Part shown: positions 225-17,387 of the stretch, in pieces
Layout of the letters: every line of letters starts with the position of its first letter
Position numbering within the stretch: position 1 is the stretch's first letter
Assembly: GCA_019670725.1 (NCBI GenBank)
Contig: AP024629.1
Span: 372,001 to 436,000, forward strand
Direction of reading: 5' to 3'
Source of the DNA: Alphaproteobacteria bacterium SO-S41
Lineage (GTDB): Bacteria; Pseudomonadota; Alphaproteobacteria; Micropepsales; Micropepsaceae
Length of the DNA: 64,000 bases
Notes under the pieces: model-generated
Told to the model about the DNA's origin: nothing
What the model saw: only the letters and a program-made list of their open reading frames with translations
The model's database searches: none
Translations under genes and position numbers: made by a program

Positions 225-557
225 GTCAGGTGACTTTGCGTCATGTCGTGGCGTCATATTCGCAATTTGCGTTTTATGGCGATCCAGAAGCGTTGCCCAA
301 ATACAATACGCCCGAAAGAGCGTTTGGTTGAAATCACTTACGCCATACTCTGCAGCAACACCCGCTTGACACAAACCGCCCCGGTGTGTGCTTTGGCGAC
401 GGACTGCAAATCAGGCGCCGGGGAGGCGTCACCGCGCAGCGACAAGCCCGAATATGGGTGCGCGCGCGAACAATAAAACCAAGAAATGCCTCCTTTGGTC
501 TGAGCGCGTCAGAAGAACGCCAGACGACATTACCTCACGGGGTTGGAGGAAAATATC
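225..557. promoter_or_regulatory. 333-bp intergenic region between divergent zur and the DUF1302 gene
   Basis: No convincing gene is seen; the short ORFs here lack ribosome-binding sites. It must hold promoters for both flanking genes. TTGACA at about 365-370 is a plausible -35 element for the rightward gene. It overlaps an ACAC/GTGT inverted repeat around a GC-rich centre (369-391) that could be an operator. A GGAGGA at 546-551 is the ribosome-binding site of the downstream gene. I see no clear Zur box. Confidence 0.4.
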
Positions 558-3296
558 ATGACCAAGACCAATCGCCTTCGCGCGGGGCTGCTCGCCACCG
601 CTGCCGGCGCCGGACTGATCGCTCTCGCGGGCAGCGCTGCGGCGCTCGAATACACTGTCGGGGGCATGAAGATCACCTTCGACACGACGATCTCGATGGG
701 CGGCTCGCTGCGCGTCGCCGACCGCAACAACGCGTTCCTGCCGGAAGCCAATGGCGGCAACCGCGATCCGCGTTCGGGCACCGGCGGCGCCGTGCTCTCC
801 GCGCCCGCAGCCGGCGGTTTCGGCCTGCAGGCGCCGACCAACCTGCTCGGCCAGGCCCTGCCGGCCCGCGTCACGATCACCAACAACGCCGACAACTTTG
901 ACGGCTCGATCAACACCGACGACGGGCGCCTGAACTTCGACAATGGCGACTTCATCGGCGCCAGCGCGAAGGTCAATCACGACTTCCTGCTGGAATACGA
1001 TAACTTCCAGGTGTTTTCGCGCTTCTACTATTTCTACGACGCCGTGCTCGACGACGAGAGCATCGGCCGCTCGGGCCTTTCGGACCGCGCGCGCGACCAG
1101 GTCGGCAAGTCGGTCGAGCTGCTCGACCTCTATCTCTCCGGCAATTTCAACCTCGGCGACCTGCCGCTCAACGTGCGCGTCGGCAAACAGGTAGTGAGCT
1201 GGGGCGAAGGCACCTTCATCCTGAACGGCATCAACGCGATCAACCCGATCGACGTCGCCGCGTTCCGCCGTCCCGGCGCGGAAATCAAGGAAGGCCTGCT
1301 ACCGGTTCCGATGGCCTATATGTCGCTCGGCCTGCCCGCGAACCTCTCGGTCGAGGCGTTCTACCAGTTCAAGTTCGAGCCCTATTCGATCGACGCTTCG
1401 GGTTCGCCCTTCTCGGGCGCCGACATCGTCGCGCGCTTCAACGAAAACGGCCTCGGCAATCTCGGCGGCCGCTCCTACACCTCGGGCAGCCTGCTCGGCG
1501 GCACCCGCCGCAACTGCGCGGGCGACAGCGATCCCGCGGGCAATTCGATCACCGACGGTTCGGGCGATACTTCGGTCGCCGGCACGCTCAACAATAACGG
1601 CCTCTCGGGCGCGGTGAATCTCGGTCTCCTGCCGGCGCCGAACTGCCTCGCGGGCGCTTCGCTCGACTTCCTCACGCCGAACACGCTCGGCATGGCGGAA
1701 CGCGACCGCAACCTGCGCGGCGATGCGGACATCGTGGCGCGCGGCGAGGACATCAATCCGGAAAATTCGGGCCAGTTCGGCATCGCGCTGCGCTGGTATG
1801 CCGAAGAACTCGGCGCGACCGAGTTCTCGCTCTACTACATGAACTATCACAGCCGCCTGCCGTTCCTGGAGATCACCTCCGGCGCGCCGAAGCTCGGCAT
1901 CTCAACGACCTCCGTGAACGCCAACATCACGCCGGACAAGCTGGCGGCGGGCGCCGCCGGCGTCCAGGGCGCGCTTGCCGCGCGCTTCGCGCCGGCCGCC
2001 GGCTGCGTCAGCGTCACCGCCGATCCCTTCACCTTCGCCGATCCGCGCTATGCCGGCTTCCGCGAGCAGGCGATCGCGGATCCCCGCAACCTCATCAACG
2101 CGCAGAGCATCGGCACGGTCCGCGCGATCTATGCCAGCTCGATCGCCTCGACGCTGGTCTCGACCGCGGGTTCGCCGTTCTTCGGTCTGGCTGCAAACAA
2201 CCCCGCGGTCGTCGCGGCGGCCAGCGCCCAGGCCGCTTCGGTCGTCGGCGTCGCCAACTCGGCCGGCAATATCGACACCTACGCCAACGCGATGCAGATC
2301 AACTGCGCCCTCGCGCTCGCCCAGTCAAAGCTGGTCGACACGTCCGGCAACGGCGCGATCGGCGCGGGCGACCTGCCCATGCTGGTCAACGGTTCGGAAA
2401 CGATCAACGTCGAATCCGACAGCCGTCTCGACGTGATCTATCCTGAGAACATCGAGCTCTTCGGCTTCAGCTTCAACACCACGATCGGCGGCTGGGGCGT
2501 GCAGGCGGAAGTCTCGTACCGTCCGCGCGCGCCGTTCCAGACCGACACCGACGCACAGACGGTCGAAGCCGCCGCCGCGGCGTGCTCGTTCCCCGTAGCG
2601 GTCGCCGACTTCGGCTTCCTGCAGTTCGAACCGCTGAACTATAACGGCGTCACGAACTGCAACCCGGGCGCGATCAACAATCTCGACGGCAACGGCCGCT
2701 ACCGTACGACGGGTGTCATCCGCAACGAGATGTTCACCTTCCAGCTCGGTACGACGGCGACCTTCACCTCGTCCGATCCGATCGTCGAATTCCTGGGCGC
2801 CGATCTCGGCATCCTGCTGACCGAATTCGGCGCGGTCTACGTCCCCGGCGTCGAGGATACCTACCTCACCAACTCCGACGGCTCGGCCACCGCGATCGCG
2901 CGTTCGACGCTGCAGTACCAGAACACGGGCTGCCAGGGTTCGGACCTGCCGCTCGGCGGCCTGCTCGGCCTCGACTTCAAGCCGTCCGACCAGTGCCGCC
3001 CGACGGACTTCTCGTTCGGCTACGTGCTGCTCGCTCGCGTCGACTACAACAACGCGTTCGGCTCGGGCTGGGCGGTCAGCCCGCAGATCGCCTTCAGCCA
3101 CGACGTCTCCGGCGCGACGCCGGCGCCGTACGGCAACTACATCGAAGACCGCATGTCCGTGAACCTCTCGGTCAGCGGCACGCTCGACAACAAGTATCGG
3201 GTGGGCGCGAGCTATACTAACTTCTTCGGCGGTGGCATCCTGAACAAAGCGTCCGATCAGGACTTCGCGTCGCTGACCTTCTCGTACTCGTTCTAA
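558..3296 (+). CDS. DUF1302 family outer-membrane protein
   Basis: A 912-residue predicted outer-membrane beta-barrel. The ATG at 558 is chosen because GGAGGA lies 6 bases upstream; a TTG 15 bases earlier would sit in that site. Residues 1-29 form a signal peptide (basic start, Ala/Gly/Leu core, AAA-L cleavage). The body is Asn/Gly/Asp-rich with alternating beta character and ends in FSYSF, the terminal aromatic typical of barrel proteins. It matches DUF1302, usually found next to DUF1329 and YCF48-like proteins, as here. It is long for the family, with Ala-rich inserted loops around residues 300-360 and 470-600. Function is not established; transport or secretion of hydrophobic compounds is a common guess. 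Confidence 0.85.
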   Translation: MTKTNRLRAGLLATAAGAGLIALAGSAAALEYTVGGMKITFDTTISMGGSLRVADRNNAFLPEANGGNRDPRSGTGGAVLSAPAAGGFGLQAPTNLLGQALPARVTITNNADNFDGSINTDDGRLNFDNGDFIGASAKVNHDFLLEYDNFQVFSRFYYFYDAVLDDESIGRSGLSDRARDQVGKSVELLDLYLSGNFNLGDLPLNVRVGKQVVSWGEGTFILNGINAINPIDVAAFRRPGAEIKEGLLPVPMAYMSLGLPANLSVEAFYQFKFEPYSIDASGSPFSGADIVARFNENGLGNLGGRSYTSGSLLGGTRRNCAGDSDPAGNSITDGSGDTSVAGTLNNNGLSGAVNLGLLPAPNCLAGASLDFLTPNTLGMAERDRNLRGDADIVARGEDINPENSGQFGIALRWYAEELGATEFSLYYMNYHSRLPFLEITSGAPKLGISTTSVNANITPDKLAAGAAGVQGALAARFAPAAGCVSVTADPFTFADPRYAGFREQAIADPRNLINAQSIGTVRAIYASSIASTLVSTAGSPFFGLAANNPAVVAAASAQAASVVGVANSAGNIDTYANAMQINCALALAQSKLVDTSGNGAIGAGDLPMLVNGSETINVESDSRLDVIYPENIELFGFSFNTTIGGWGVQAEVSYRPRAPFQTDTDAQTVEAAAAACSFPVAVADFGFLQFEPLNYNGVTNCNPGAINNLDGNGRYRTTGVIRNEMFTFQLGTTATFTSSDPIVEFLGADLGILLTEFGAVYVPGVEDTYLTNSDGSATAIARSTLQYQNTGCQGSDLPLGGLLGLDFKPSDQCRPTDFSFGYVLLARVDYNNAFGSGWAVSPQIAFSHDVSGATPAPYGNYIEDRMSVNLSVSGTLDNKYRVGASYTNFFGGGILNKASDQDFASLTFSYSF

Positions 3297-3352
3297 TATG
3301 CGGGGGACAAACATCCGCACTCGTGTTGCACGTCTCTCAGGAGGACTTTTCC

Positions 3353-4723
3353 ATGCGTAAGTTCACGGCCCTGCTCGCGACGGCCTGCGCCCTGGCGCTG
3401 GCCGGCCCCGCGCTGGCCAAGGTGCCTGCCGAAGTCGCGGCGCGCCTCGGCAAGGATCTGACGCCCTATGGCGCGGAACTCGCCGGCAATGCCGACGGCT
3501 CGATCCCGGCCTGGGACGGCGGCCTTTCCGCCCCGCCCGCCGGCGTCACCTTCGATCCGAACGCCAAGGGCTATCCCGATCCGTTCTCGGGCGACAAGCC
3601 GCTCTTCACGATCACCTCGGGCAATGCCGGCCAGTACGCCGACAAGCTAACCGAAGGCTACAAGGCGCTTCTCGCCAAGCGCGCCAACTACAAGATGCCT
3701 GTCTATCCGACGCGCCGTTCGTGCGCGTTCCCCAGCTTCGTCTATGACGCGAACAAGAAGAACGCGACGGTCGGCGAGCTGCTGCCCGACGGCAACGGCG
3801 TCTCCGGCGCGATCATGGGCGCGCCGTTCCCGATTCCCTCGAGCGGTCTTGAGTTCGTGTGGGACCACACGCTGCGCTATCGCTCCTACAAGGTGACGCG
3901 CCAGTTCAGCGCGTTCCCGGTCCAGACGTCGGGCGACCCGCTCGGCGGCAAGATCACCTTCCAGGACGAAGCTATCCTGCGCTGGTCGGACCCGTCCAAG
4001 ACGCGCGCCGAGGATCTCCAGAACATCTCTCTGCTCTACATCTCCAACACGATCGCGCCCGCACGTCTCGCCGGCAATGTCGTGCTGGTGCATGAATCGC
4101 TGAACGCGGCCGTCGAGCCCCGCAAGGCGTGGCAGTACAATCCCGGCCAGCGCCGCGTGCGCCGCGCGCCGGACATCTCCTACGACAATCCCGGCACCAA
4201 CACCGACGGCATGTCCACCTCGGACGCGTTCGACGGCTATAACGGCGCGCCGGATCGCTATGACTGGTCGCTGGTCGGCAAGTCGGAAAAGTACGTCGCC
4301 TACAACGCCAACCGCATGACGAACGCGTCCTACGCGGAACTCGTCCTCAACGGTTCGCTGAACCAGGACCTGATGCGCTACGAGCTCCACCGCGTGTGGA
4401 CGGTCGAGGCAAAGCTGCGTCCCGGCACGCGCCACGTCTATTCGCGCCGCGTGAACCACTTCGACGAGGACAGCTATTCGATCCTGTCGGTCGAGCTCTA
4501 TGACGGCCGCGGCGAACTGTGGCGCGTCCAGGAAGAGCCGATGGTCGCCTATTATCACGTCCCGCTGTGCAACGCGGCCGGCGAGATGGTCTACGACCTG
4601 CAGGACGGCCGCTATCTCGCGAGCTCGCTGCGCAACGAAGAGCCGCCGGCGAACTACAAGGCGAACGAGCTGAACGAAGCCCGTTACACGCCCGACGCGA
4701 TCCGCCGCCTCGGCCTGCGCTGA
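3353..4723 (+). CDS. DUF1329 family periplasmic/outer-membrane protein
   Basis: A 456-residue exported protein that begins at the ATG at 3353, preceded by AGGAGG at about 3339-3344. Residues 1-20 form a signal peptide ending in ALA. The mature start (VPAEVAARLGKDLTPYGAE) and the AWDGG motif are the family hallmark, and YSRRVNHFDEDSYSI near the C-terminus is also typical. DUF1329 proteins have a LolA/LolB-like half-barrel fold and co-occur with DUF1302. The two genes are 56 bp apart and probably co-transcribed; a hairpin follows the stop codon. The biochemical role is unknown. I infer that it chaperones or binds a hydrophobic ligand together with the DUF1302 barrel. Confidence 0.85.
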   Translation: MRKFTALLATACALALAGPALAKVPAEVAARLGKDLTPYGAELAGNADGSIPAWDGGLSAPPAGVTFDPNAKGYPDPFSGDKPLFTITSGNAGQYADKLTEGYKALLAKRANYKMPVYPTRRSCAFPSFVYDANKKNATVGELLPDGNGVSGAIMGAPFPIPSSGLEFVWDHTLRYRSYKVTRQFSAFPVQTSGDPLGGKITFQDEAILRWSDPSKTRAEDLQNISLLYISNTIAPARLAGNVVLVHESLNAAVEPRKAWQYNPGQRRVRRAPDISYDNPGTNTDGMSTSDAFDGYNGAPDRYDWSLVGKSEKYVAYNANRMTNASYAELVLNGSLNQDLMRYELHRVWTVEAKLRPGTRHVYSRRVNHFDEDSYSILSVELYDGRGELWRVQEEPMVAYYHVPLCNAAGEMVYDLQDGRYLASSLRNEEPPANYKANELNEARYTPDAIRRLGLR

Positions 4724-4741: not shown

Positions 4742-4774
4742 CGGCCCGGTACCCTTGGTGCCGGGCCGTTTTCT
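4742..4774 (+). terminator. Rho-independent terminator or attenuator after DUF1329 gene
   Basis: CGGCCCGGTA pairs with TGCCGGGCCG (one G-T wobble) around a short loop, followed by TTTT. It lies 19 bp past the DUF1329 stop and 38 bp before the YCF48-like start. The downstream gene therefore probably has partial readthrough or its own promoter. Confidence 0.75.
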
Positions 4775-4811
4775 GTCTAGCCTTGCCGTCTTCAGTTGCG
4801 TGGATTTCTGC

Positions 4812-6041
4812 ATGACCTTCAAATACGCGCCCCGCTTCGCTCTCGCGCTTCTCATGGCCCTGCCGCTCGGCCTCGCCTCGGCGCAGGACGCCGCCGCCCC
4901 GGCCGCGCCCGCTTTCGCGCCCGGCGATGCGAGCCCCAGCGATCTCCTGATGAAATCCCTGCTGCTCGGCGTTGCCCGCGCCGGCAACCGCATCGTCGCG
5001 GTCGGCGAGTTCGGCCATGTCGCGCTCTCCGACGACGAGGGCAAGACCTGGCGCCAGGCCAAGCGCGTGCCGGTCGAGACGACGCTGACCTCGGTCACCT
5101 TCCTTGACGCCAATACCGGCTGGGCCGCCGGCCACGACAAGACGATCCTGATGACCGCCGATGGCGGCGAGACCTGGACCGTGCAGTATTCCCGCGAGAT
5201 TTCCGCGAAGGCCGGGATCAGCCTGGAGCCCCGCCGCCGCCCCGATGCGCCGGCCGCGACGCCCGCTCCTGAGCCCGCCGCGCCCGCCGACGGCGCCGCA
5301 CCCGCCGAAGCCGCGCCGCCTGCCGAAGGCGGCCTGCCGGTGATCGATGAAAGCGCGGTCGATGACGGCATCTCCACCGACGATGACGGCTTTGTCGAAA
5401 GCGATACGACCGGCAGCGACGTCGAAGCCGACATCCCCTTTCTCGGCCTCGTCTTCACCAGCCCGACCCACGGCTTCGCGGTCGGCGGCTTCAACTATGC
5501 CGTCGAGACCAACGACGCCGGCAAGACCTGGACGCCCCGCCGCCTCGTCGTCACCGCGAGCGATGATTTCCATCTGAGCGGCGCCTTCACCGGCCCGGCG
5601 GGCGAAATCTTCCTGCCGAGCGAAAAGGGTCAGGTCTATCGCTCGCTCGACAACGGCACGACCTGGGACATCGTCCGCGTCGGCTATGAGGGCTCGTTCT
5701 GGGGCGGCCTCGGGCTCAAGGACGGCTCGGTCCTCGCGATCGGCATGCGCGGCAATGTCTGGCGCAGCACGGATCGCGGCGAGACCTGGACCGATCTCGC
5801 CAAGGACCTCACACCGGAATCGGTCGCGGCGGGCACGCAGCTCGCCGACGGCACGATCGTGCTGGTCGGTATCGCTGGCCTCGTTATGACCTCGAAGGAC
5901 AACGGTGCGAGCTGGGACCTCTCGCTGAGCCAAGCCGACCGCAAGGGCCTCGCGGCGGTCACGCCCGGTCATGACAACATGCTGCTGCTCTTCGGCGAGG
6001 CGGGTTTCCGCGAACAGGCGCTGACCAAGCCGCAGGGCTGA
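4812..6041 (+). CDS. YCF48/BNR-repeat beta-propeller protein
   Basis: A 409-residue exported protein; the ATG at 4812 is used because an upstream in-frame GTG lies within the terminator hairpin. Residues 1-24 are a signal peptide (ending ASA). Six Asp-box-type repeats are visible: SDDEGKTW, TADGGETW, TNDAGKTW, SLDNGTTW, STDRGETW and SKDNGASW. These mark a BNR/YCF48-type propeller related to photosystem II assembly factor HCF136, but nothing here is photosynthetic. Between repeats 2 and 3 is an unusual insert: a Pro/Ala-rich stretch (about 140-180) then an Asp/Ser-rich acidic stretch. In other proteobacteria this family sits with DUF1302, DUF1329 and an MMPL/RND transporter. The transporter is missing here. 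Confidence 0.85.
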   Translation: MTFKYAPRFALALLMALPLGLASAQDAAAPAAPAFAPGDASPSDLLMKSLLLGVARAGNRIVAVGEFGHVALSDDEGKTWRQAKRVPVETTLTSVTFLDANTGWAAGHDKTILMTADGGETWTVQYSREISAKAGISLEPRRRPDAPAATPAPEPAAPADGAAPAEAAPPAEGGLPVIDESAVDDGISTDDDGFVESDTTGSDVEADIPFLGLVFTSPTHGFAVGGFNYAVETNDAGKTWTPRRLVVTASDDFHLSGAFTGPAGEIFLPSEKGQVYRSLDNGTTWDIVRVGYEGSFWGGLGLKDGSVLAIGMRGNVWRSTDRGETWTDLAKDLTPESVAAGTQLADGTIVLVGIAGLVMTSKDNGASWDLSLSQADRKGLAAVTPGHDNMLLLFGEAGFREQALTKPQG

Positions 6042-6070
6042 CCGCGCCTTTCTCAAGCCCGGATTTGGTG

Positions 6071-6100
6071 AAAAGCCCGCAATGTGCGGGCTTTTTTCTT
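6071..6100 (+). terminator. Rho-independent terminator
   Basis: AAAAGCCCGC and GCGGGCTTTTTT form a perfect stem with a 4-5 base loop and a run of six T. It lies 30 bp after the YCF48-like stop and closes the envelope module. Confidence 0.9.
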
Positions 6101-6240
6101 GGTTTTTCACGCCTTGGTGACAAAGTGACGGCACCGTCAATTTGGCCTTGCCGCCTAGGGCAAGTCGATGCATCCTGAATGAAATGATCAATCGTCGCGG
6201 TTCACGCTAGCGGCTAGAAACCACCCTGGGAGAGCACGTG

Positions 6241-7356
6241 ATGTCGAATATCACCAAGGACCCCGCCTATAACGCGGTCGATCCGAACGACTTCCCCGCG
6301 ATGATGGACGTGGACCGCTACGGCGCCCGCTCCACCGCTTTCGACAAGATCATCTCGGCGACCCACGATCATTTCTGGGACCCGCTCGACCCCAAATATA
6401 TCGACTTCACGGCGCCCTGGGACATCGAGAAGGACTATCTCGTCGACCCGATGTCCTCGCCGGACTTCCGCACGGCGATCGCCGACAGACTGGACGAGCG
6501 CGGCAAGATCAAGCTCGTGAACATGAACACGCTCTGGTCGCTGTCCTCGATCCTGCATGGCGAGCAGGGCGCGCTCGCGCTGTCCGCCTCGCTCTGCCAC
6601 ATCCTCCGCGACCCCGGAGCGCAGGAATACGCCGCGAACCAGACCCGCGAAGAGGCCCGTCACGTCACCGCATTCAGCCGTTACGTGAAGGCGCGCTGGG
6701 GCAAGCCGCGGCCAGTCGGCCCGGCGCTCGGCAATCTCCTCACCGAACTCGTCCTCTCGCCGCTGGTCTGGAAAAAGATCGTGGGCATGCAGATGCTGGT
6801 CGAAGGCCTCGCGATGGGCGCCTTCGCCATGATGTATAAGGACGGCCGCGATCCGCTGCTGGTGAAGCTGATGCAGCTCGTCATGACCGACGAGGCCTTC
6901 CACCACAAATTCGGGAAGATCTGGGCCGACCGCACCATCCCGCATCTGTCGAAAGGCGAGCACGAGCAGATCGAGGACTGGGCGTGGAACGTCTTCAACG
7001 TCCTCATCTACAATCTCGCCAGCCCCGACCAGAAGACCTGGATCTATCAGGAGCTCGGCCTCGATCCCCTCTGGTGCCAGCAGGCCTTCATGGAGGCGCT
7101 GACCGACGAGGCGATGCGCAAGGACATGCAGGACGCCTCCAACATCTTCCGCGTCCTCGTGAAGACGCTGCTCAAGGCCGGCATCATCACCGACCGCACG
7201 CGCGGCAATTACGCAGCCTTCCTCGACATGGCCGAGCTGCACAACGAGAGCGATCGGATGATCGGCGACGACATCGCCGAGGACGGCATCCGCTACCTCA
7301 TCAAGCTGAATGGCGGCACCAGCCTGCTGGGTCCGCAGCTTCTGGCGGCGGAGTAA
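6241..7356 (+). CDS. Ferritin-like diiron protein, copy A
   Basis: A 371-residue protein. The ATG at 6241 follows a GGGAGAG site. It carries two diiron half-sites with equal spacing: Glu108 then E138-x-x-H141, and Glu188 then E218-x-x-H221. This E-X29-ExxH pattern is that of bacterial diiron carboxylate oxygenases and ferritin-like oxidases. Flanking conserved words are HGEQGAL, REEARH, LVEGLAMG and TDEAFHH. No signal peptide or membrane segment is seen, so it should be cytosolic. The next gene is a near twin. The exact reaction is not recognisable: it could be an oxygenase or desaturase (AurF-like), or an oxidase. Position next to lipid-type catabolism suggests oxidation of a hydrophobic substrate (inference). 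Confidence 0.75.
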   Translation: MSNITKDPAYNAVDPNDFPAMMDVDRYGARSTAFDKIISATHDHFWDPLDPKYIDFTAPWDIEKDYLVDPMSSPDFRTAIADRLDERGKIKLVNMNTLWSLSSILHGEQGALALSASLCHILRDPGAQEYAANQTREEARHVTAFSRYVKARWGKPRPVGPALGNLLTELVLSPLVWKKIVGMQMLVEGLAMGAFAMMYKDGRDPLLVKLMQLVMTDEAFHHKFGKIWADRTIPHLSKGEHEQIEDWAWNVFNVLIYNLASPDQKTWIYQELGLDPLWCQQAFMEALTDEAMRKDMQDASNIFRVLVKTLLKAGIITDRTRGNYAAFLDMAELHNESDRMIGDDIAEDGIRYLIKLNGGTSLLGPQLLAAE

Positions 7357-7361
7357 GCGGC

Positions 7362-8486
7362 ATGACCAACGCGATGACGAACATCACCAAGGATCCGGCC
7401 TATGACGCCGCCGATCCGCACGATTTTGCGACGATGATGGAGGTCGAGCGCTACGGCAATCGCTCGACCGCCTTCGACAAGATCATCTCGGCGACCCACG
7501 ACCATTTCTGGGATCCGCTAGACCCCAAATATATCGACTTCACGGCGCCGTTCGATCTCGAGAACGAGTATCTGATGCCGCCGAACATGAACATGGAACT
7601 GCAGACGGCGGTCGCCGACCGGCTGACCGAGAAGCAGAAAATCCGCCTCGTGAACGAATCCGTGCGCTGGTCGCTCTCGTCCATCCTGCACGGCGAGCAG
7701 GGTGCGCTCTCGCTCTCGGCCTCGCTCTGCCACGTGCTGCGCGATCCCGGCGCGCAGGAGTACGCGGCGAACCAGACGCGCGAGGAAGCCCGTCACGTCA
7801 CCGGCTTCACCAAGTATGTGCAGGCCCGCTGGGGCAAGCCGCTGCCGGTCGGCCCGGCGCTTGGCAATCTCCTGAACGAGATGGTGTCCAGCCCTTATGT
7901 CTGGAAGAAGCTGGTCGGCATGCAGATGCTGGTCGAGGGCCTCGCCATGGGCGCCTTCGCGACCTTCTACACCTATGGCCGCGATCCGTTGATGGTGAAG
8001 CTGATGCAGCTCGTCATGACCGACGAGGCCTTCCACCACAAGTTCGGGAAGATCTGGGCCGACCGCACCATCCCGCATCTCTCCGAAGGCGAGCGCAACC
8101 TCATCGAGGACTGGGCGGCGGAAGTCTTCCGCGGTCTCCTCTTCAATCTCGGCAGCCCCGAGCAAAAGAAGCCGATCTATGCCGAGTTCGGTCTCGACTG
8201 GCAGTGGGTGCAGGGCGCGGTCGCCGAAGGCTTCACCGACGCCAAGATCCGCGCGCGGCTGAAGGATTCCACCTCGATCTTCCGTGTACTGATCAAGACG
8301 CTGCTGAAGGCCGGCATCATCACCGACCGCACGCGCGCCACCTATGCCGCCTTCGTCGACATGGAAGAGCTGCACACCGAAAGCGACCGGATGATCGGCG
8401 ACGATATCGCGGAAAAGGGCATCCAGTATCTGCAGCAGATCAACGGCGCGGCCGGCTTCGGCGCCACGCTGCTCGCCGCGGAATAG
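7362..8486 (+). CDS. Ferritin-like diiron protein, copy B
   Basis: A 374-residue tandem paralogue of the preceding gene, starting 5 bp after its stop. The ATG at 7362 has GGCGGAG upstream, though an ATG at 7374 would align exactly with copy A. The ligand set is complete: E112, E142-x-x-H145, E192, E222-x-x-H225. Similarity to copy A is strong by eye in the helices carrying the ligands. It is weakest at residues about 65-85 and 255-300, where the two probably differ in substrate pocket or partner contact. Two intact copies in one operon suggest a heteromer or two specificities rather than decay of one copy. The gene ends in a bidirectional hairpin. Confidence 0.75.
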   Translation: MTNAMTNITKDPAYDAADPHDFATMMEVERYGNRSTAFDKIISATHDHFWDPLDPKYIDFTAPFDLENEYLMPPNMNMELQTAVADRLTEKQKIRLVNESVRWSLSSILHGEQGALSLSASLCHVLRDPGAQEYAANQTREEARHVTGFTKYVQARWGKPLPVGPALGNLLNEMVSSPYVWKKLVGMQMLVEGLAMGAFATFYTYGRDPLMVKLMQLVMTDEAFHHKFGKIWADRTIPHLSEGERNLIEDWAAEVFRGLLFNLGSPEQKKPIYAEFGLDWQWVQGAVAEGFTDAKIRARLKDSTSIFRVLIKTLLKAGIITDRTRATYAAFVDMEELHTESDRMIGDDIAEKGIQYLQQINGAAGFGATLLAAE

Positions 8487-8527
8487 ATTTCATCGGCCCT
8501 GCGCCAACCACCGCGCAGGCAAACTCA

Positions 8528-8550
8528 TGGCCGGGGTTGCCCCCGGCCAT
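8528..8550. terminator. Bidirectional terminator hairpin between convergent genes
   Basis: ATGGCCGGGG and CCCCGGCCAT pair around a 3-4 base loop, followed by TTCTTGTTTG on the plus strand. It sits between the diiron pair and the convergent TonB receptor gene. The T-run is poor, so strength is uncertain. Confidence 0.6.
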
Positions 8551-8573: not shown

Positions 8574-10784
8574 TCAGTGGCTGAAGGTCAGCGTCAGGCC
8601 ATAGGTCATCGGCGGGGCATAGGGCACCAGCAACTGCGCGTTCAGCGGATAGTTGGTGGCGTAGGTGCGCACCAGCTCGTCCGTCAGGTTCTTGCCCCAC
8701 AGCGCGACGCTCCAATCGCCATCGGGCGCCGTGAAGGACAGGCGTGCGTCGATATTGTCGTAGCCCTCCTGCGTCTGGTTCGCGATGTTCGACGCGTCGA
8801 AATACATCTTCGACTGCACCGCGTAATCGACCCGCGCCTTCGCCCGCCAATCGCCGACATCCCACGCATACTGCACGCCGATGTTGAACTTGTTCTTCGG
8901 CGAGCGCGGCACGATCTTGCCGGTATTGTTGGTCGCGCCGACGACATAGTCGGTGAAGACCGCGTCGAGATAGGCGTAGGAGCCGTCGATCTGCAGTCCT
9001 TCGACGGGCCGCACGATAAACTCCAACTCCGCGCCTTCGATCCGTGCCGTCGCGGCGTTCGAGACGATGACGCAGCAGAGCGGCACCAGGGTCGAGACCT
9101 GCAGATCCTCGTAGTCGGTGCGGAAGAGCGCCAGGTTCAACTGGAGCTTGTCGTCCCACCACGAGGTCTTGGCGCCGAGTTCGTAACCCCAGGCATATTC
9201 CGGATCGTACGGCGTCGCTGCGCCGGCGGCCGTGCCGGAAATGCCTTGGAAGCCGCCGCTCTTATAGCCGCGCGAGGCCGAGGCGTAGAACAGCATGTTG
9301 TCCGCCGCCTGCCACGACAGGGCGAAGCGGGGCGTGAAGGCCTCCCAATCCTGGGTCGCGGTGACGTCGTAGTCCACCGCGCCGAGCGGCGGCGGACGCC
9401 CCGGGCCGGCATCCAGCTTGAAGCCGCCAAACCGGCCGGACTTTTCTTCCCACGTCATGCGCGCGCCGACCGTCGCGGTCAGCGTGTCGGTGATGGCGTA
9501 GTTGAACTGGCCGAACACCGCGAAGCTGGTGGCGTCGACCGACTGGGGATAGCGGGCCCGGCCCGAAATCGCTGCCGTGCCGAAATCCTGGATCAGGTCC
9601 TGCACGCGGTCGTTCTGTTCCGAGAGGTAATAGAGTCCGACCTGACCGGTCAGCTTCTCATCGAAGGCGGAGAAGGCGAGGCGGACTTCCTGGCTGAACT
9701 GCTGGTTATCCTCGATGCCGATTTCGGTCGACTCGATCTGCGCGCGCGGGAAGGTCGGGCTGATCGGATTGGAGAAGAACGGCGTAACGGTCTCGATCTC
9801 GCCTTCGCGGAACGCGGTGATCGAGGTGAACGTGCCGATCGAGGTGTCCCAGTTGATCTCGGCGCGATAGGTGCGCAGGTCGCGCTTCAGCTTGCCGTCG
9901 ATATAGGCGTTGACGATGCGCGGATCGGGATTGACGCCGACGCAATGGATGCCGGCCTGGAAGGTCGGATCGCAGATATTGTCGCGCGGATTGCCGTATT
10001 GGTCCTGATGGGTGATGTCGAAGCCGAGCACGATGTCGAGATCGTCGGTCGGCAGGAAGCGGAACTGGAACGACGCGGTGGTCAGCTTCTCGTTGTCGAC
10101 ATCGTTGCCGGTTGTCTCGTTCAGCGTATAGCCGTCGCGCGACTTGCTGGAGATCGAGGCCGAGACGAAGGTCTTGTCGGACAGCGCGTAGTTCCCCGAA
10201 CCCTTGAAGCTCAGGCGGTTATAGTTGCCGACCGTCGCTTCCAGGTTCACCCACTTGTCGTTCTCGGGCTTCTTGGTGATGAACTGGACGAGACCGCCGA
10301 CCGCGTTCTTGCCGAACAGCGTGCCCTGCGGACCGCGCAGCACTTCGATGCGCTCCAGGTTCAGGCCGTCAATGTCTGGCGTGCCGCCGCGACCGGCATA
10401 GACGCCATCCACGAACACGACGACCGACGGGTCGCCGCCCGCGTTCTGGCTGATGCCGTGGGCGCTGCCGATGCCGCGGATCGCATAGTTGGACTGGGTT
10501 GGATCGACCACCGTCATGGAGAAGCCGGGCACGCGCATCGCGAGATCGGCGAGCGTCTCGATATTGTTGTCCTTGAGGCGCGTCGCGTTGAAGGCGGACA
10601 CCGCCAGCGGCACCTTCTGCAGGTTTTCGCGCACGCGCTGGGCGGTCACGATGACCTCCTCTTCGCCCTCGGCAGCGGGCGCGGCCGGCGCCGGCGTCTG
10701 GGCGGCGGCCGTTCCGACACCGGCCGCCAGAACGGCAGCGACGGAAACGCAGGCAAGCAGATTTGGCTTGATCGTCAATCTCAT
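8574..10784 (-). CDS. TonB-dependent receptor
   Basis: A 736-residue outer-membrane receptor. Residues 1-28 are a signal peptide (ending AAA-Q). A TonB-box-like EEEVIVTAQ follows at about 42-50, then a plug domain with YAIRGIGS, VFVDGVYAGR and LERIEVLRGPQGTLFGKNAVGG. A 22-strand-type barrel ends in LTLTFSH. This resembles the large group of receptors in sphingomonad- and caulobacter-type organisms that take up many carbon sources rather than only siderophores. It is encoded convergently to the diiron pair and divergently to the DUF3237-MFS operon. The substrate is unknown; uptake of the compound degraded by the neighbouring genes is an inference. Confidence 0.92.
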   Translation of the reverse strand: MRLTIKPNLLACVSVAAVLAAGVGTAAAQTPAPAAPAAEGEEEVIVTAQRVRENLQKVPLAVSAFNATRLKDNNIETLADLAMRVPGFSMTVVDPTQSNYAIRGIGSAHGISQNAGGDPSVVVFVDGVYAGRGGTPDIDGLNLERIEVLRGPQGTLFGKNAVGGLVQFITKKPENDKWVNLEATVGNYNRLSFKGSGNYALSDKTFVSASISSKSRDGYTLNETTGNDVDNEKLTTASFQFRFLPTDDLDIVLGFDITHQDQYGNPRDNICDPTFQAGIHCVGVNPDPRIVNAYIDGKLKRDLRTYRAEINWDTSIGTFTSITAFREGEIETVTPFFSNPISPTFPRAQIESTEIGIEDNQQFSQEVRLAFSAFDEKLTGQVGLYYLSEQNDRVQDLIQDFGTAAISGRARYPQSVDATSFAVFGQFNYAITDTLTATVGARMTWEEKSGRFGGFKLDAGPGRPPPLGAVDYDVTATQDWEAFTPRFALSWQAADNMLFYASASRGYKSGGFQGISGTAAGAATPYDPEYAWGYELGAKTSWWDDKLQLNLALFRTDYEDLQVSTLVPLCCVIVSNAATARIEGAELEFIVRPVEGLQIDGSYAYLDAVFTDYVVGATNNTGKIVPRSPKNKFNIGVQYAWDVGDWRAKARVDYAVQSKMYFDASNIANQTQEGYDNIDARLSFTAPDGDWSVALWGKNLTDELVRTYATNYPLNAQLLVPYAPPMTYGLTLTFSH

Positions 10785-12798: not shown

Positions 12799-12881
12799 GG
12801 CGCCGCTGTCTCGCGCGGCGCACTGGACGCCGCGCGCTGAGGCCCGCACACTCTCCGCAACAAGAATGCGTGGGGAGTGAC

Positions 12882-13685
12882 ATGAAAACGCCGATTGAGG
12901 ATCGCGGCTGGCAACGCATCAAGGTGACGCGCGATGGCCGTATCCTGACGCTGACGCTCTCCAATCCCGCGCTGCGCAACGCCGTCGATCCGCAGCTTCA
13001 CGCCGAACTCGCCGACATCTTCTATGCCGCCAATGACGATGCCGGCTCGGACGTCGTCATTCTTACGGGCGAGGGCGACGCGTTCTGCGCCGGCGGCGAC
13101 ATCAACTGGTTCCGCCGCGCCCTCGCGGGCGAGGACCATGTCCCCGGCGTGATGGAAGCGAAGAAGATTATCTTCGGCCTGCTTGACCTCGAGAAGCCCC
13201 TCATCGCGAAGGTGCGCGGTCCCGCCGTGGGCCTCGGCTGTACCATCGCGCTCTTCTGCGACACGATCTTCGCGGCGGAAGATGCCGTCTTCATCGATCC
13301 GCACGTGAAGGTCGGCATCGTCGCCGGCGATGGCGGCGCGGTGATCTGGCCGCATCTCATCGGCCATGCCCGCGCCAAGGAATACCTGATGACCGGCGAT
13401 CCCGTGCCCGCCGCCGAGGCATGGCGCATGGGCCTCGTGAACCACGTCGTGCCCAATGCCGACCTTGACGCGCGCGTCGCGGCCTATGCGGCGAAGCTCG
13501 CCGGCGGCGCGGTGCAGGCGATCAAATACACCAAGGTCTCCGTCAATCTCGGTCTGAAGCAGCTCGTCACCACCATTCTTGACGCCTCCATCGCCTATGA
13601 GATGACGACCTTCGCCACCAACGATCACCGCGAGGCGGTCGCCGCCTTCCTTGAAAAGCGCAAGCCGCGCTTCACGGGCACCTGA
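12882..13685 (+). CDS. Enoyl-CoA hydratase/isomerase family protein
   Basis: A 267-residue crotonase-fold enzyme. The ATG at 12882 is preceded by GGGGAG, 4 bases away. The CoA-binding oxyanion pieces are NPALRNAVD, GEGDAFCAGGDINW and RGPAVGLGCTIALFCD. The residue after the second loop (DPHVKVGIVAGDGG) has the layout of hydratases, with Asp in place of one usual Glu, so hydratase versus isomerase activity cannot be decided. Its stop overlaps the next ATG (TGATG). It probably works with the acyl-CoA dehydrogenase two genes downstream. Confidence 0.85.
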   Translation: MKTPIEDRGWQRIKVTRDGRILTLTLSNPALRNAVDPQLHAELADIFYAANDDAGSDVVILTGEGDAFCAGGDINWFRRALAGEDHVPGVMEAKKIIFGLLDLEKPLIAKVRGPAVGLGCTIALFCDTIFAAEDAVFIDPHVKVGIVAGDGGAVIWPHLIGHARAKEYLMTGDPVPAAEAWRMGLVNHVVPNADLDARVAAYAAKLAGGAVQAIKYTKVSVNLGLKQLVTTILDASIAYEMTTFATNDHREAVAAFLEKRKPRFTGT

Positions 13686-14350
13686 TGCGCGCCGCGGCCC
13701 AGGCCGATCTCTTCGGTGCGGTGGACCCCGTCCTGCCGCCGGGCATCGCGCTGTTCCGTGGCCGCATTCCGCTCGCCGAAAGCCGTGTCCTGCTGGACGA
13801 CATGCTCACCGTCTTCGCCGCCGCGCCGCCCTATCGGCTGCGCATGAAGACCGGCGCCTATGTCATCAACCAGCTCACCAATTGCGGCGAGCTCGGCTGG
13901 CATTCGGACAGCCAAGGCTATCGCTATGTCGACCGCCACCCCGAACAGGGCACGCCCTGGCCCGCCATCCCGCCGCGCGTGAAGGCGGCCGCCATTGCCG
14001 CTGCGCGCGAGTGCGGCGTCGCGGATTTCGATCCCGATGCCTGCCTCGTCAATCTCTATGCGGCGGAGGGGAAGCTGAACCTCCATCAGGATCACGACGA
14101 GGCCGACTTCGCCTGGCCCATCGTCTCGTTCAGTTTCGGCAATGACGGCGTCTTCGCCCTGGGCGGGGCGAAACGGCGCGATCCCGTTCAGGGCGTCACG
14201 CTGCATCACGGCGACGTCATGGTGCTGCACGGGCCTGGACGAATGCTGTTCCACGGCGTGAAGAAGATCGTGCCCGGCACCGCGCCGTTCCAGCACTCGG
14301 CCATTCCCGCAAACGGCCGTCTCAACCTCACGCTCCGGCGCGCGACATGA
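13685..14350 (+). CDS. alkB: AlkB-type 2-oxoglutarate/Fe(II) DNA repair dioxygenase
   Basis: A 221-residue protein. Family features are visible: the N-terminal start (GIALFRGRIPLAE), NLYAAEGKLNLHQDHDE with the iron-binding H-x-D, a distal His in MLFHGVKK, and the 2-oxoglutarate Arg pair in RLNLTLRR at the C-terminus. Known role: oxidative demethylation of alkylated bases in DNA or RNA. Start and stop overlap the neighbours on both sides (TGATG and ATGA), so it is inside a tight operon of acyl-CoA enzymes. That is unusual for AlkB, which is more often linked to ada. The repair role is supported by sequence; why it is in this operon is unclear. Confidence 0.9.
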   Translation: MRAAAQADLFGAVDPVLPPGIALFRGRIPLAESRVLLDDMLTVFAAAPPYRLRMKTGAYVINQLTNCGELGWHSDSQGYRYVDRHPEQGTPWPAIPPRVKAAAIAAARECGVADFDPDACLVNLYAAEGKLNLHQDHDEADFAWPIVSFSFGNDGVFALGGAKRRDPVQGVTLHHGDVMVLHGPGRMLFHGVKKIVPGTAPFQHSAIPANGRLNLTLRRAT

Positions 14351-15510
14351 CCGACTACGACGAACCCGACCACGTCACCGCGCTGCGCGACAGCGTCCGC
14401 CGTTTCGTCGCGGCGGAGATGCCGCGCGAGAAGGCGCGCCAATGGGACCGCGACAATCACTGGCCGCGCGAGGTGCATGCCAAGCTCGCCGAACTCGGCG
14501 TCTTCGGCCTCACCGTGCCCGAAGCCTATGGCGGCCACGGCCCCGACATCTCGGCGGCGATGGCTGTCATCGAGGAGCTCGCGAAACGCTCCACCGGCAT
14601 CGTCTGCTCCTACATCATGGCGGTCTGCTATGCCGGCATGAACCTGGTGGAGAGCGGCAGCGACGCCCAGCGCGCCGAGCTGTTGCCGCGCCTCGTGCGC
14701 GGCGAACTGCTCTTCGCCTACGGCCTCAGCGAGCCCAATGTCGGCGGCGATCTCGCCAGCGTCGAGACGTCGGCGCGGCTGGAAGGGGCTGAGGTCGTCA
14801 TCAACGGCGCCAAGCGCTGGTGCACGGGCTCGCATATCGCCGACTACATTTTCTGCCTCGTGCGCAGCGGCGAGAGGGGCGAGAAGTATCGCAACCTCTC
14901 CGTCGTCCTCGTGCCGCCTCAGTCCGCCGGCATCACCATCACGCCGCTCGGTCATCTCGGCATTCGCGGGGTGGAGACCAAGGACGTGACCTTCGACGAG
15001 GTGCGCGTGCCCACGGCCAATATTCTGGGCGGGCCGGACAAATGGGGGCAGGGCTGGTCGCAGCTCGCGGGCAAGGCGTTGGAGGTCGAAAAGCTCGAAC
15101 TCTCCGCCTGCGCCCTCGGCCTCGCGACGGCGGCGGTGGACGATGCCTGGGACTACGCGCAGCAGCGGGTGCAGTTCGGCCGCAAGATCTCGGCGCACCA
15201 GGCGATCCGCCACAGTCTCGCGGACATGCGCACGCGGGTGCAGGCGATGCGCCACATGCTCTACCACGCGGCGTGGCTGGCCGACCGCAACCGGCCCTGC
15301 TCGGTCGAAACCTCGATGGCGAAACTCTTCTGCTGCGAAGGCGCGTCGGAGGTGACTCAGGCTGCGATGCGCGTCGCCGGCGCCTATGGGTTGTCCGACC
15401 AGTTCGACTTCGAGCGCTACACGCGCGACGCGATCTCGCTCCCCATCGTCGGCGGCTCGTCGAACATGCAGAAAAACAACATCGCCAACCGGCTGAGGCT
15501 CGAAAGCTGA
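14347..15510 (+). CDS. Acyl-CoA dehydrogenase
   Basis: A 387-residue FAD enzyme. It has the standard three-part fold: helical start (ALRDSVRRFVAAEMP), middle domain with YGLSEPNVGGDLAS (FAD and substrate contacts) and GAKRWCTGSHIAD, and C-terminal domain with VQFGRKISAHQAIRH, ending in the FAD motif IVGGSSNMQKNNIANR. The ATG overlaps the alkB stop (ATGA). The C-terminal QKNNIA segment is the usual cofactor-contact region. The chain-length or side-chain specificity cannot be read. With the hydratase upstream it could carry out the first two steps of a beta-oxidation-like sequence. Confidence 0.9.
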   Translation: MTDYDEPDHVTALRDSVRRFVAAEMPREKARQWDRDNHWPREVHAKLAELGVFGLTVPEAYGGHGPDISAAMAVIEELAKRSTGIVCSYIMAVCYAGMNLVESGSDAQRAELLPRLVRGELLFAYGLSEPNVGGDLASVETSARLEGAEVVINGAKRWCTGSHIADYIFCLVRSGERGEKYRNLSVVLVPPQSAGITITPLGHLGIRGVETKDVTFDEVRVPTANILGGPDKWGQGWSQLAGKALEVEKLELSACALGLATAAVDDAWDYAQQRVQFGRKISAHQAIRHSLADMRTRVQAMRHMLYHAAWLADRNRPCSVETSMAKLFCCEGASEVTQAAMRVAGAYGLSDQFDFERYTRDAISLPIVGGSSNMQKNNIANRLRLES

Positions 15511-16667
15511 TGACCTCACGCGAAGACCTCCTCGCTGCCGCCGAACGATTCGCCCCCGAAATCGAACGCCGCGCGCCTGAGTTCGAAGAGGCCCGCCGCA
15601 TCCCCGCCGATCTCGCGGCACGCATGGCCGAGGCGCGGCTCTTCGCGATGCTGGTGCCTCAGGTCTATGGCGGCGTCGAAACCGACCCGCTGACGGTCGT
15701 CGAGGTGATCGAGCGCCTCGCGGTCGCCGACGGCGCGGCGGCGTGGATCACCTTCATCGCGGCGACCAGCGGCATGACCGCCGCCTATCTGCCCGAACAC
15801 GCGGCGCGCACGATTTTCGCCGACCCGAATGCGGTCATTTCAGGGGTCTTCGCGCCGCGTGGCAAAGCGGTGGATCGCGGTGACGGCACCTACGACGTCG
15901 CCGGGCGCTGGCAGTGGGGCTCGGGCACCCAGAACGCGCAGTGGATCCTCGGCGGCTGCCTGATCCTCAAGGACGGCAAGCCGGAGATGCTGGGGATGAT
16001 CCCCAACATGCGCCTGTTCCTGCGCCCGGCGGCGGAGGTGACGATCCACGACACTTGGCATGTCTCGGGCCTCAAGGGCACGGGGTCGAACGATATCGAG
16101 TTCGCGCCGGCGCGGATGTCCCGCGATTTCTCGGTCAACCTCAGCGCCGACAAGCCGCTCGACCGCCCGCTCTACGCCTTCCCGCCCTTCGGCATGCTCG
16201 CCATGGCGATCGCCGCGGTCTCGCTTGGTCTCGCCCGGGCGGCGATCGACGCGCTCGTCGACCTCGCCGGCGGCAAGACGCCGGAAGGCCACCGCCGCCC
16301 ACTCGCCCAGCGCCTCGAGACCCAGGAGAAGGTGGCGGAAGCCGAAGCCCTCGTGCGCTCCTCCCGCGCCTGGCTCCACACGACCATCAGCGCCGCATGG
16401 GACGCCGCACAGCGTCCCGGCAGCGTAACGATCGCGCACCGCCGCGACCTCCGCCTCGCCACCACCCACGCCGTCCGCAGCTGCGCCCGGGCGGTCGATC
16501 TCATGTACGCGCTCGGCGGAGGCAGTTCGGTCTACGACACCTCCCGCCTGCAACGCTGCTTCCGCGACATCCACGTCGCCACCCAGCACATGATGGTCGG
16601 CACGCCCACGCTGGAGCTCACGGGGCGGCTCTTTCTAGGACTCGAGGCGGAAACGTCAGCACTGTAA
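15510..16667 (+). CDS. Acyl-CoA dehydrogenase-fold flavoprotein, class D monooxygenase-like
   Basis: A 385-residue flavoprotein starting at the ATG that overlaps the previous stop (TGATG). It has the acyl-CoA dehydrogenase fold but resembles HsaA/HpaB-type flavin monooxygenases: GRWQWGSGTQNAQW, a WHVSGLKGTGSND middle segment, and the C-terminal FRDIHVATQHMM, typical of that group. Such enzymes use reduced flavin supplied by a separate reductase to hydroxylate phenolic or steroid-derived substrates. No reductase gene is adjacent; a FMN reductase-like gene lies 30 kb away. The alternative is a true acyl-CoA dehydrogenase without the usual catalytic Glu. I favour the monooxygenase reading. Confidence 0.75.
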   Translation: MTSREDLLAAAERFAPEIERRAPEFEEARRIPADLAARMAEARLFAMLVPQVYGGVETDPLTVVEVIERLAVADGAAAWITFIAATSGMTAAYLPEHAARTIFADPNAVISGVFAPRGKAVDRGDGTYDVAGRWQWGSGTQNAQWILGGCLILKDGKPEMLGMIPNMRLFLRPAAEVTIHDTWHVSGLKGTGSNDIEFAPARMSRDFSVNLSADKPLDRPLYAFPPFGMLAMAIAAVSLGLARAAIDALVDLAGGKTPEGHRRPLAQRLETQEKVAEAEALVRSSRAWLHTTISAAWDAAQRPGSVTIAHRRDLRLATTHAVRSCARAVDLMYALGGGSSVYDTSRLQRCFRDIHVATQHMMVGTPTLELTGRLFLGLEAETSAL

Positions 16668-16805: not shown

Positions 16806-16817
16806 TAATTTGTGACA

Positions 16818-17387
16818 ATGATCGCGCTTGGAAAACGTCTGAAGATCCTAGATGGAGCGCTGGCCGTCTTCGAAGCCAAAGGCTTCCACGCCGCCGCCGT
16901 CCCTGAGATTGCAGCGGCGTCCAGCGTGGCGGTGGGGACGATCTATCGGCATTTCCCCACCAAGGAGGCATTGGGTGAAGCCCTGCTGGCGGCGTGGCAG
17001 GAGCGGTTTAATGCGGATGTCCTGGCGCCCTATCCGGCGACCGCGACGCCGCGGGCCGCGCTGCGCCTCACCTGGCGGCGCATGGCCGGCTTCGCCCGTT
17101 CCTTTCCGGCTGCGCAACGATTTCTCGATCTGCACCACCACGCGTCCTATGCAGGGCCCGCGAGCGCCGCGGCGGAAGCGGCGCTCCACCAGGGGATGCG
17201 TGAGCTCGCCGATTGGGGTCGCCGGCAGGGCGTGATGAAACCGCTCCCGCCGGAGGCCCTGACCGCCCTGCTGCGGGGCAGCCTTGCCGGCCTGGCGCGT
17301 TATGCGGCCGTCGCGGGTGTCATCCCGCAAACCCTGATCGACGATATGGAGGACTGCCTGTGGAATGCCGTCGCCACCCGCACGTAA
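16818..17387 (+). CDS. TetR family transcriptional regulator
   Basis: A 189-residue repressor. The N-terminal helix-turn-helix is clear: ILDGALAVFEAKGFHAAAV, IAAASSVAVGTIYRHFPTKE (residues about 10-47). The C-terminal ligand domain is alpha-helical and Ala/Leu-rich. The ATG at 16818 is used; a GTG 6 bases upstream is possible, and neither has a good ribosome-binding site, so the mRNA may be leaderless. Two palindromes upstream point to autoregulation. A crotonase gene and an SDR gene follow in the same direction and may be co-transcribed. The ligand is unknown, probably an acyl-CoA or pathway substrate. Confidence 0.88.
   Translation: MIALGKRLKILDGALAVFEAKGFHAAAVPEIAAASSVAVGTIYRHFPTKEALGEALLAAWQERFNADVLAPYPATATPRAALRLTWRRMAGFARSFPAAQRFLDLHHHASYAGPASAAAEAALHQGMRELADWGRRQGVMKPLPPEALTALLRGSLAGLARYAAVAGVIPQTLIDDMEDCLWNAVATRT

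Follow-up and report, generated by a model that had tools for sequence, protein, structure and literature searches.

Tandem ferritin-like diiron enzymes and a shared promoter dyad in an alphaproteobacterial genome, with a possible role in the oxidation of hydrophobic compounds

Alphaproteobacteria bacterium SO-S41 carries two adjacent genes for ferritin-like diiron enzymes, here called copies A and B, within the stretch of DNA analysed in this study (the window; 64,000 nucleotides (nt), positions 372001-436000 of the complete 4.44 Mb genome). Copy A (6241-7356 of the window, plus strand) encodes 371 amino acids (aa) from an ATG start, with a GTG one codon earlier, and copy B (7362-8486, plus strand) begins either at ATG 7362, 5 nt past the stop codon of A, or at ATG 7374. 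The ligands assigned to the diiron site of A are E108, E138, H141, E188, E218 and H221. They form two half-sites, E108 with E138-x-x-H141 and E188 with E218-x-x-H221, in which 29 residues lie between E108 and E138 and between E188 and E218, and the same E-X29-ExxH pattern occurs twice, with all six ligands intact, in copy B. A previous interpretation made from the letters alone (the sequence-only reading) had described a tandem pair of complete diiron enzymes with identical spacing in each half-site, and this description was confirmed: both open reading frames (ORFs) are intact and the copies share 73% identity. It had also located the differences between the copies around residues 65-85 and after the last ligand, in agreement with the distribution found here, in which 22 of the 100 differing positions (371 compared) fall within residues 61-100 and 31 within residues 241-300. 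A third paralogue, copy C, is encoded in the same genome, 342 kb from A-B.

The region upstream of A contains a dyad, TGACG-N4-CGTCA (6126-6139, TGACGGCACCGTCA), a putative operator located 101 nt before the gene and preceded by a terminator-like hairpin. It is the only TGACR-N4-YGTCA site in the window. This pattern was found in 87 of 141 distinct diiron upstream regions (distinct meaning that duplicate fetched loci were collapsed by sequence), compared with an average of 0.09 (at most 1) in 100 rounds of shuffling. When all 5-mer dyads with an N4 spacer were counted, TGACG ranked first with 66 regions, followed by TGACA with 6. The spacer was N4 in 87 regions, N3 in 9 and N8 in 1, with none of 0-2 or 5-7 nt, and the dyad precedes the matched gene by 27-219 nt. 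In 2.39 Mb of loci, 109 of the 117 distinct sites of the relaxed form were at diiron promoters, and the exact TGACG-N4-CGTCA occurred at 81 distinct places, of which 76 precede a diiron gene of at least 300 codons by no more than 250 nt and three more lie upstream of truncated diiron genes (L140, L048 and L051); with duplicates uncollapsed, 86 of 88 sites were upstream of a diiron gene. Since all loci of the comparative set were chosen for carrying such a gene, this contrast is one with the rest of the same loci and not with whole genomes. B copies inside a tandem have no dyad, and the lone B copy of locus L055 has one. Upstream of the diiron gene in L109 and L120 we observed TTACG-N4-CGTAA with the same spacing, possibly a shifted operator.

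Across the whole SO-S41 genome the exact dyad was found 18 times, versus once for a reversed control pattern. One site precedes A, two lie between C and a divergent gene for a resistance-nodulation-division (RND) transporter, eight are at other promoters, and seven are inside called genes, one of them a doubtful 80-codon ORF. The dyad links the paralogues with each other and with one transporter gene, which is the new and strongest result of this analysis; copy C, its RND neighbour and the common dyad all go beyond the sequence-only reading. From the symmetry and placement of these sites we infer that the dyad may be the operator of a shared regulator. The eight other promoters (L160, L161, L164, L165, L167, L171, L172 and L173:5074) belong to an alcohol dehydrogenase, a PHO4 transporter, a P450 whose nearest relative is P450terp, a GPH symporter/PhyH-like unit, a flavin adenine dinucleotide (FAD) oxidase, a thiolase/TetR pair, a flavin monooxygenase and a tetratricopeptide repeat (TPR) protein. 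The TetR protein beside the thiolase (L171) was considered as a family-wide regulator and rejected, because it is present in six of the eight genomes that lack the enzyme (one orthologue each in 37 of 44 genomes overall) and the exact dyad precedes only 2 of 29 testable orthologues (30 loci, one without a callable ORF). A weak candidate is the TetR regulator encoded in the window itself (16812-17387, plus strand). In relatives belonging to two genera its homologues are encoded at a distance of 0.2-4.5 kb from diiron genes; no homologue was found in Parvibaculum-type loci, and no dyad is present at its own promoter.

The position and stem length of two terminator-like hairpins, both on the plus strand, suggest that A-B may form a two-gene transcript of its own. 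The first (6070-6096; 12 pairs with a T-rich tail) is situated between the upstream YCF48 gene and A, and the second (8527-8550; 10 pairs) lies 3' of copy B. Their number proves nothing, because the terminator scan of the window gave 3 sites and shuffled sequences gave 1.8. An 11-pair hairpin occupies the same place as the first in L006. Its conservation is not clear, as the hairpins of L064 and L051 coincide in part with the dyad, and none was found on the plus strand of L055. A sigma-70 promoter scan found no promoter.

After removal of seven partial diiron ORFs, the larger alignment comprised 131 distinct full-length homologues; an earlier one held 94 distinct sequences. All six ligands were invariant in 94/94 and then in 131/131 sequences, so that the loss of ligands in orthologues, which the sequence-only reading had set against its own proposal, was not seen. 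Both copies are maintained, since the ratio of nonsynonymous to synonymous substitution rates is low (A 0.065, B 0.120, each versus one orthologue in L006). A quick IQ-TREE phylogeny of 94 rows recovered A (28 rows, SH-aLRT 99), B (15 rows, 88, below the mark of 95) and C (25 rows, 100). In a FastTree phylogeny of 131 rows, B (15 rows) had a support of 95 and C (25 rows) one of 99; A (18 rows) was not one clade, a wider group around C (C+) had a support of 7, and one C row was unplaced. When 15 A sequences were compared with 15 B sequences, eight alignment columns differed in a fixed or nearly fixed way between the two sets, and a split substrate range, the second option of the sequence-only reading, may apply to the pair. 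The A-B tandem itself is found in several genera, and an old, maintained pair in separate groups is supported by these sequence comparisons.

Searches at E ≤ 1e-20 found matches in 50 of 96 same-family genomes, a set that includes incomplete ones (G084 counts through a 36% match alone). Across the Alphaproteobacteria, 53 of the 385 genomes sampled had a match, which in five reached only ~29-36% identity. In a plasmid collection, relatives occurred in 6 of 72,556 records with little annotation, the best having 49% identity (Tistrella). Three outside-family homologues (G135:C1:1898103, G193:C574:1741 and G261:C1:1449131) have one stop codon inside the match, and G008 has fragments at other places that may represent a second copy.

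The best family match was Pfam AurF (PF11583), with 29.6 bits for A (the gathering cut-off is 29.6), 26.1 for B and 26.6 for C, and no NCBIfam model reached its cut-off for A or B. Storage ferritin membership, which the sequence-only reading had named as a refuting outcome, was rejected, since the Pfam and NCBIfam searches up to E 1 listed no ferritin family. When the PDB was searched with a profile built from 40 homologues, no match was significant; the best was an aldehyde decarbonylase (E 0.013), and AurF followed at E 1.7. The AlphaFold2 model, made for copy A only (pLDDT 84.9, pTM 0.86), places the two E...ExxH half-sites in a helical bundle. It is about equally near R2, R2lox, AurF and CmlI (Z 19.5-20.6; R2 20.6, R2lox ~20), and with Z values so close a choice among the four by structure search was not possible. 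Foldseek with the same model gave no match at E ≤ 0.001.

Diagnostic residues were compared through equivalences based on ligand spacing rather than on structure superposition. Position 214, that of the third His of AurF, is V in 101, T in 25 and A in 5 of the 131 homologues (VxxDExxH in A). Because the six ligands are invariant and position 214 is never His (131/131), the site is read as a 2-His/4-carboxylate one, the set reported for most diiron hydroxylases (PMC12101540); the ligand sets of AurF, CmlI and DnfA were taken from PMC9478400 and PMC12101540. AurF/CmlI membership was rejected, since the HxxDExxH motif of the 3-His/4-carboxylate site is absent from 131/131. The homologues resemble AurF and CmlI in predicted fold, length, ExxH motifs, the D before the last ExxH and the best Pfam match, but differ in the missing third His and in having E, not D, before the first ExxH.

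In R2 of class I ribonucleotide reductase, the radical Tyr is found four residues after the first His ligand. The diiron family shares the fold and ligand pattern of R2, but has Phe at this position in 128 and Tyr in only 3 of 131 sequences, and its neighbours are catabolic. R2 membership was rejected on the Phe, a weak test alone; class Ic R2 proteins are also devoid of the radical Tyr. R2lox proteins have a Tyr-Val crosslink near the metal site. Here the Tyr position is Met in 129 and Leu in 2 sequences and the Val position is Ala in 131/131, and R2lox membership was rejected accordingly, although the fold and the 2-His/4-carboxylate set are alike. The R2lox protein GkR2loxI, with Y162 and V72 near the metal site, is an R2-fold enzyme reported to degrade alkanes as a monooxygenase (PMC10867098), a further point of likeness if the role proposed below is right. 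As predicted from model and alignment, the diiron family is a 2-His/4-carboxylate ferritin-like one on an R2/AurF-like fold, and by its residues it is a variant, so far uncharacterised, within a known kind of enzyme, without the defining residues of AurF, R2 and R2lox. No description of it was found in literature titles and abstract openings, from which its absence from print is not claimed, and a literature search for ferritin-like together with DUF1302 returned no paper.

The genes before A point to envelope transport. A DUF1302 outer-membrane protein resembling AmeA (543-3296; PF06980, 505 bits; coordinates from the ORF start, the true start may be later), a DUF1329 periplasmic protein resembling AmeB (3323-4723; PF07044, 443 bits; ORF start) and a YCF48/BNR protein resembling AmeC (4755-6041; PF14870, 70.5 bits; ORF start, the true start probably later) are all encoded on the plus strand. 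On the other side, a TonB-dependent receptor (8574-10784, minus strand; PF00593, PF07715) is convergent with A-B. The pair thus has the place between a DUF1302/1329 module and a TonB receptor that had been read from the sequence, with the YCF48/BNR gene also lying before A. The DUF1302 and DUF1329 genes are the only matches of their kinds in the whole genome, and DUF1302, DUF1329 and YCF48 genes precede A and/or B in several genera. In L063:1-8733 and L064:7-8983 this three-gene set is duplicated in tandem before A-B.

No RND gene adjoins A-B. The one divergent from C (G000:C1:36663-40100, 1146 aa) is the strongest MMPL match of the genome, and its best NCBIfam model is HAE3, at 145.8 bits versus a cut-off of 351.9. 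An MMPL gene within 1.5 kb accompanied 14 of the 25 C rows, 5 of the 7 in C+ and a single one of the other 99 rows, and all 20 were divergent and upstream; in this 131-row count, 13 rows without an MMPL gene are too near a contig end to judge, and the C+ match in L116 is only 23% identical. Two tandem RND genes near a diiron copy were seen in L082, L084, G010:C1 and G090:C17. Among the 96 same-family genomes the RND gene is present in 19, and these include all 16 genomes with a close DUF1329 protein (E ≤ 1e-120); of the 77 genomes that lack the RND gene, none encodes a close DUF1329 and twelve have a weaker one.

This arrangement resembles AmeABCD of Castellaniella defragrans, which acts on apolar monoterpenes, in that DUF1302, DUF1329 and COG4447/YCF48-type genes stand before the diiron genes and an HAE3-like RND gene is present in the genome. 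It differs in that ameA-D are four adjacent genes, whereas the SO-S41 RND gene is longer and lies at a second locus; diiron genes are present at both loci and go unmentioned in the available text on AmeABCD (PMC6394551). AmeABCD has been described as an exporter, and Castellaniella tolerates monoterpenes less well once ameABCD is deleted (PMC6394551). In P. putida, a DUF1302/DUF1329 pair and an RND/periplasmic pair with separate locus numbers are reported to share a Tween-20 growth phenotype (PMC10866462). From the gene content of the two loci we infer that they may encode one AmeABCD-like transporter of hydrophobic compounds in split form, with a diiron enzyme at each.

Downstream, the window contains a beta-oxidation group on the plus strand, separated from B by the TonB receptor, a DUF3237 gene and a major facilitator superfamily (MFS) gene. 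It consists of an enoyl-coenzyme A (CoA) hydratase/isomerase (12870-13685; PF00378), an AlkB-like 2-oxoglutarate (2OG)-Fe(II) protein (13685-14350; PF13532; NCBIfam AlkB 198 bits, below the cut-off of 267), an acyl-CoA dehydrogenase recognised by domain match (14347-15510) and a second acyl-CoA dehydrogenase (15525-16667, the matched part of ORF 14820-16667, whose start is uncertain). The same order, from the enoyl-CoA hydratase as the next group member after B to the second dehydrogenase, follows the diiron gene(s) in L006, L017, L033 and L055. The AlkB-like protein is kept within this group, an odd site for a relative of DNA-repair enzymes. In Parvibaculum-type loci, an acyl-CoA synthetase and acyl-CoA dehydrogenases follow the diiron gene. 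A different setting was seen in L139:9125-16288 (G045:C8), where a diiron homologue directly precedes a KS-DH-KR-ACP-KS polyketide synthase gene, suggesting recruitment into biosynthesis.

As for the electron donor, the sequence-only reading had noted no ferredoxin or rubredoxin next to the pair, and a motif scan of the window's called genes, a search that other donor types could escape, likewise gave no such motif within 5 kb of A-B. In one subclade, genes for a Fer2 ferredoxin (nearest to putidaredoxin and its relatives) and a P450 (by Pfam) adjoin the diiron gene. An unselected scan of 127 loci had a ferredoxin next to the diiron gene in two, and of ten loci fetched as suspected members of this subclade five had one; P450 genes were within 6 kb of a homologue in 8 of 138 loci, six among the ten selected ones (duplicates are uncollapsed in both scans). 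The motif scan also gave two Rieske-like matches and one doubtful Fer2-like match, 3-4.6 kb away. Compared with the PDB, two of these P450s were nearest to CYP153 types (CYP153A7, E 1.6e-175 and 8.5e-184). The SO-S41 genome encodes a ferredoxin (G000:C1:4326766) 73% and a P450 62% identical to those of the subclade, neither near a diiron gene. These neighbours give a lead for the electron donor of A and B, probably a putidaredoxin-type ferredoxin.

The explanation that we favour, albeit tentatively, is that A and B take part in the O2-dependent diiron oxidation of hydrophobic aliphatic or terpenoid compounds, combined with CoA-dependent catabolism, a split AmeABCD-type transport system and a shared regulator at the dyad. 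The substrate class is suggested by the neighbouring genes and by the genes that share the dyad. Under this hypothesis, A and B would be soluble O2-activating diiron oxygenases, either C-H hydroxylases or desaturases. Their reduced diiron site would bind and activate O2 and then take hydrogen from a C-H bond of the substrate, with electrons probably delivered by a putidaredoxin-type [2Fe-2S] ferredoxin whose gene lies elsewhere, and the oxidised product would enter CoA-dependent beta-oxidation. The AmeABCD-type RND system, split over two loci, would move the hydrophobic compound across the envelope in a transport or toxicity role, its direction being taken from the published export reading of AmeABCD, and the A-B unit and C with its divergent RND gene would answer to one regulator at TGACR-N4-YGTCA.

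Several observations weigh against this proposal. Kinship alone could explain the co-occurrence of the transporter parts, because their pattern follows genus boundaries. Genome G012, 91% complete and with an A-B pair, yielded neither a DUF1329 nor the RND gene and has a TonB-type gene upstream of A-B (L052), and the loci collected from genus g5 have no transporter part near A or C. The RND gene product is longer than AmeD (1146 aa versus 787 aa; PMC6394551), and genus g6 has AmeD-sized genes besides it. On the enzyme side, a ligand double mutant of GkR2loxI lost only part of its alkane activity (PMC10867098). A Parvibaculum strain is reported to oxidise alkanes in the manner of a P450 (PMC3695450), which by analogy speaks against plain alkane hydroxylation as the diiron role there, and the subclade ferredoxin may serve the P450 only, because it also adjoins that gene. 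Turning to regulation, no more than 3 of the 18 exact genomic dyads are at diiron promoters, some dyad-bearing promoters have no oxidation role (phosphate transporter, symporter, TPR protein), the loci of the CYP153/ferredoxin subclade have no dyad, and DUF1302 promoters are mostly without one (1 of 10 testable has it).

The same gene content could be read as biosynthesis rather than catabolism, with the enzymes hydroxylating or desaturating a self-made lipid (hopanoid-like, carotenoid or polyketide) that an HAE3-like RND protein moves outward. We regard such envelope lipid tailoring as unlikely. It would fit the polyketide synthase neighbour in L139, the description of AmeABCD as an exporter and the reported movement of hopanoids by the HAE3 member HpnN (PMC6394551), but beta-oxidation genes, an acyl-CoA synthetase or a CYP153-type P450 stand near many loci, and 46 of the 96 same-family genomes, incomplete ones included, gave no match at E ≤ 1e-20, which would be unusual for a basic envelope lipid. 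It is rather improbable, too, that the dyad is part of a core promoter or RNA leader kept in the gene family and not a dedicated operator. Its placement 27-219 nt ahead of the gene and the lack of an identified regulator would agree with that idea, as would the TetR protein with the dyad at its own promoter, which so rarely keeps it; its perfect symmetry, its mostly fixed spacer and its presence before other genes of the SO-S41 genome argue the other way.

Three further readings concern the enzymes themselves. An obligate heterodimer of A and B, with each copy giving part of one active unit, agrees with two adjacent, old and conserved genes and with the diiron partner found directly upstream in 13 of 15 B rows; the sequence-only reading had offered a heterodimer as one option. 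In obligate form this is very unlikely, because A occurs without B behind YCF48 in L070 and L071 and B without A in L055 and L042; moreover, each copy keeps all ligands, and the 100% complete genome G011 shows B and C and no A. An AurF/CmlI-type N-oxygenase acting on amines appears highly improbable from the residues: AurF is the best Pfam family, with A just at and B below the cut-off, but the third His is missing throughout and the PDB profile search finds AurF only at a non-significant E value. To a fatty-aldehyde enzyme like the cyanobacterial aldehyde deformylating oxygenase we give equally little credence; the best PDB profile match has its ligand motifs in register, but it is non-significant, spans ~130 residues around the ligands, falls under every curated cut-off and concerns a shorter protein, and the catabolic setting has no need of such an activity.

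When inert hydrophobic molecules are broken down, the difficulty lies in the first oxidation, and the soluble single-gene enzymes known to carry it out are few. The diiron family has a full diiron site yet lacks the residues that mark its named relatives. Possibly, though this is doubtful, it represents a novel group of soluble diiron C-H oxygenases, distributed through the Alphaproteobacteria, at the core of an undescribed dyad-defined regulon, in which a sensor of hydrophobic compounds would induce the paralogues and the HAE3-like pump, and A, B and C would divide substrates or steps among them. The dyad gives a handle on the function of these enzymes, as the regulator bound there, and the ligand of that regulator, would point to the substrate.

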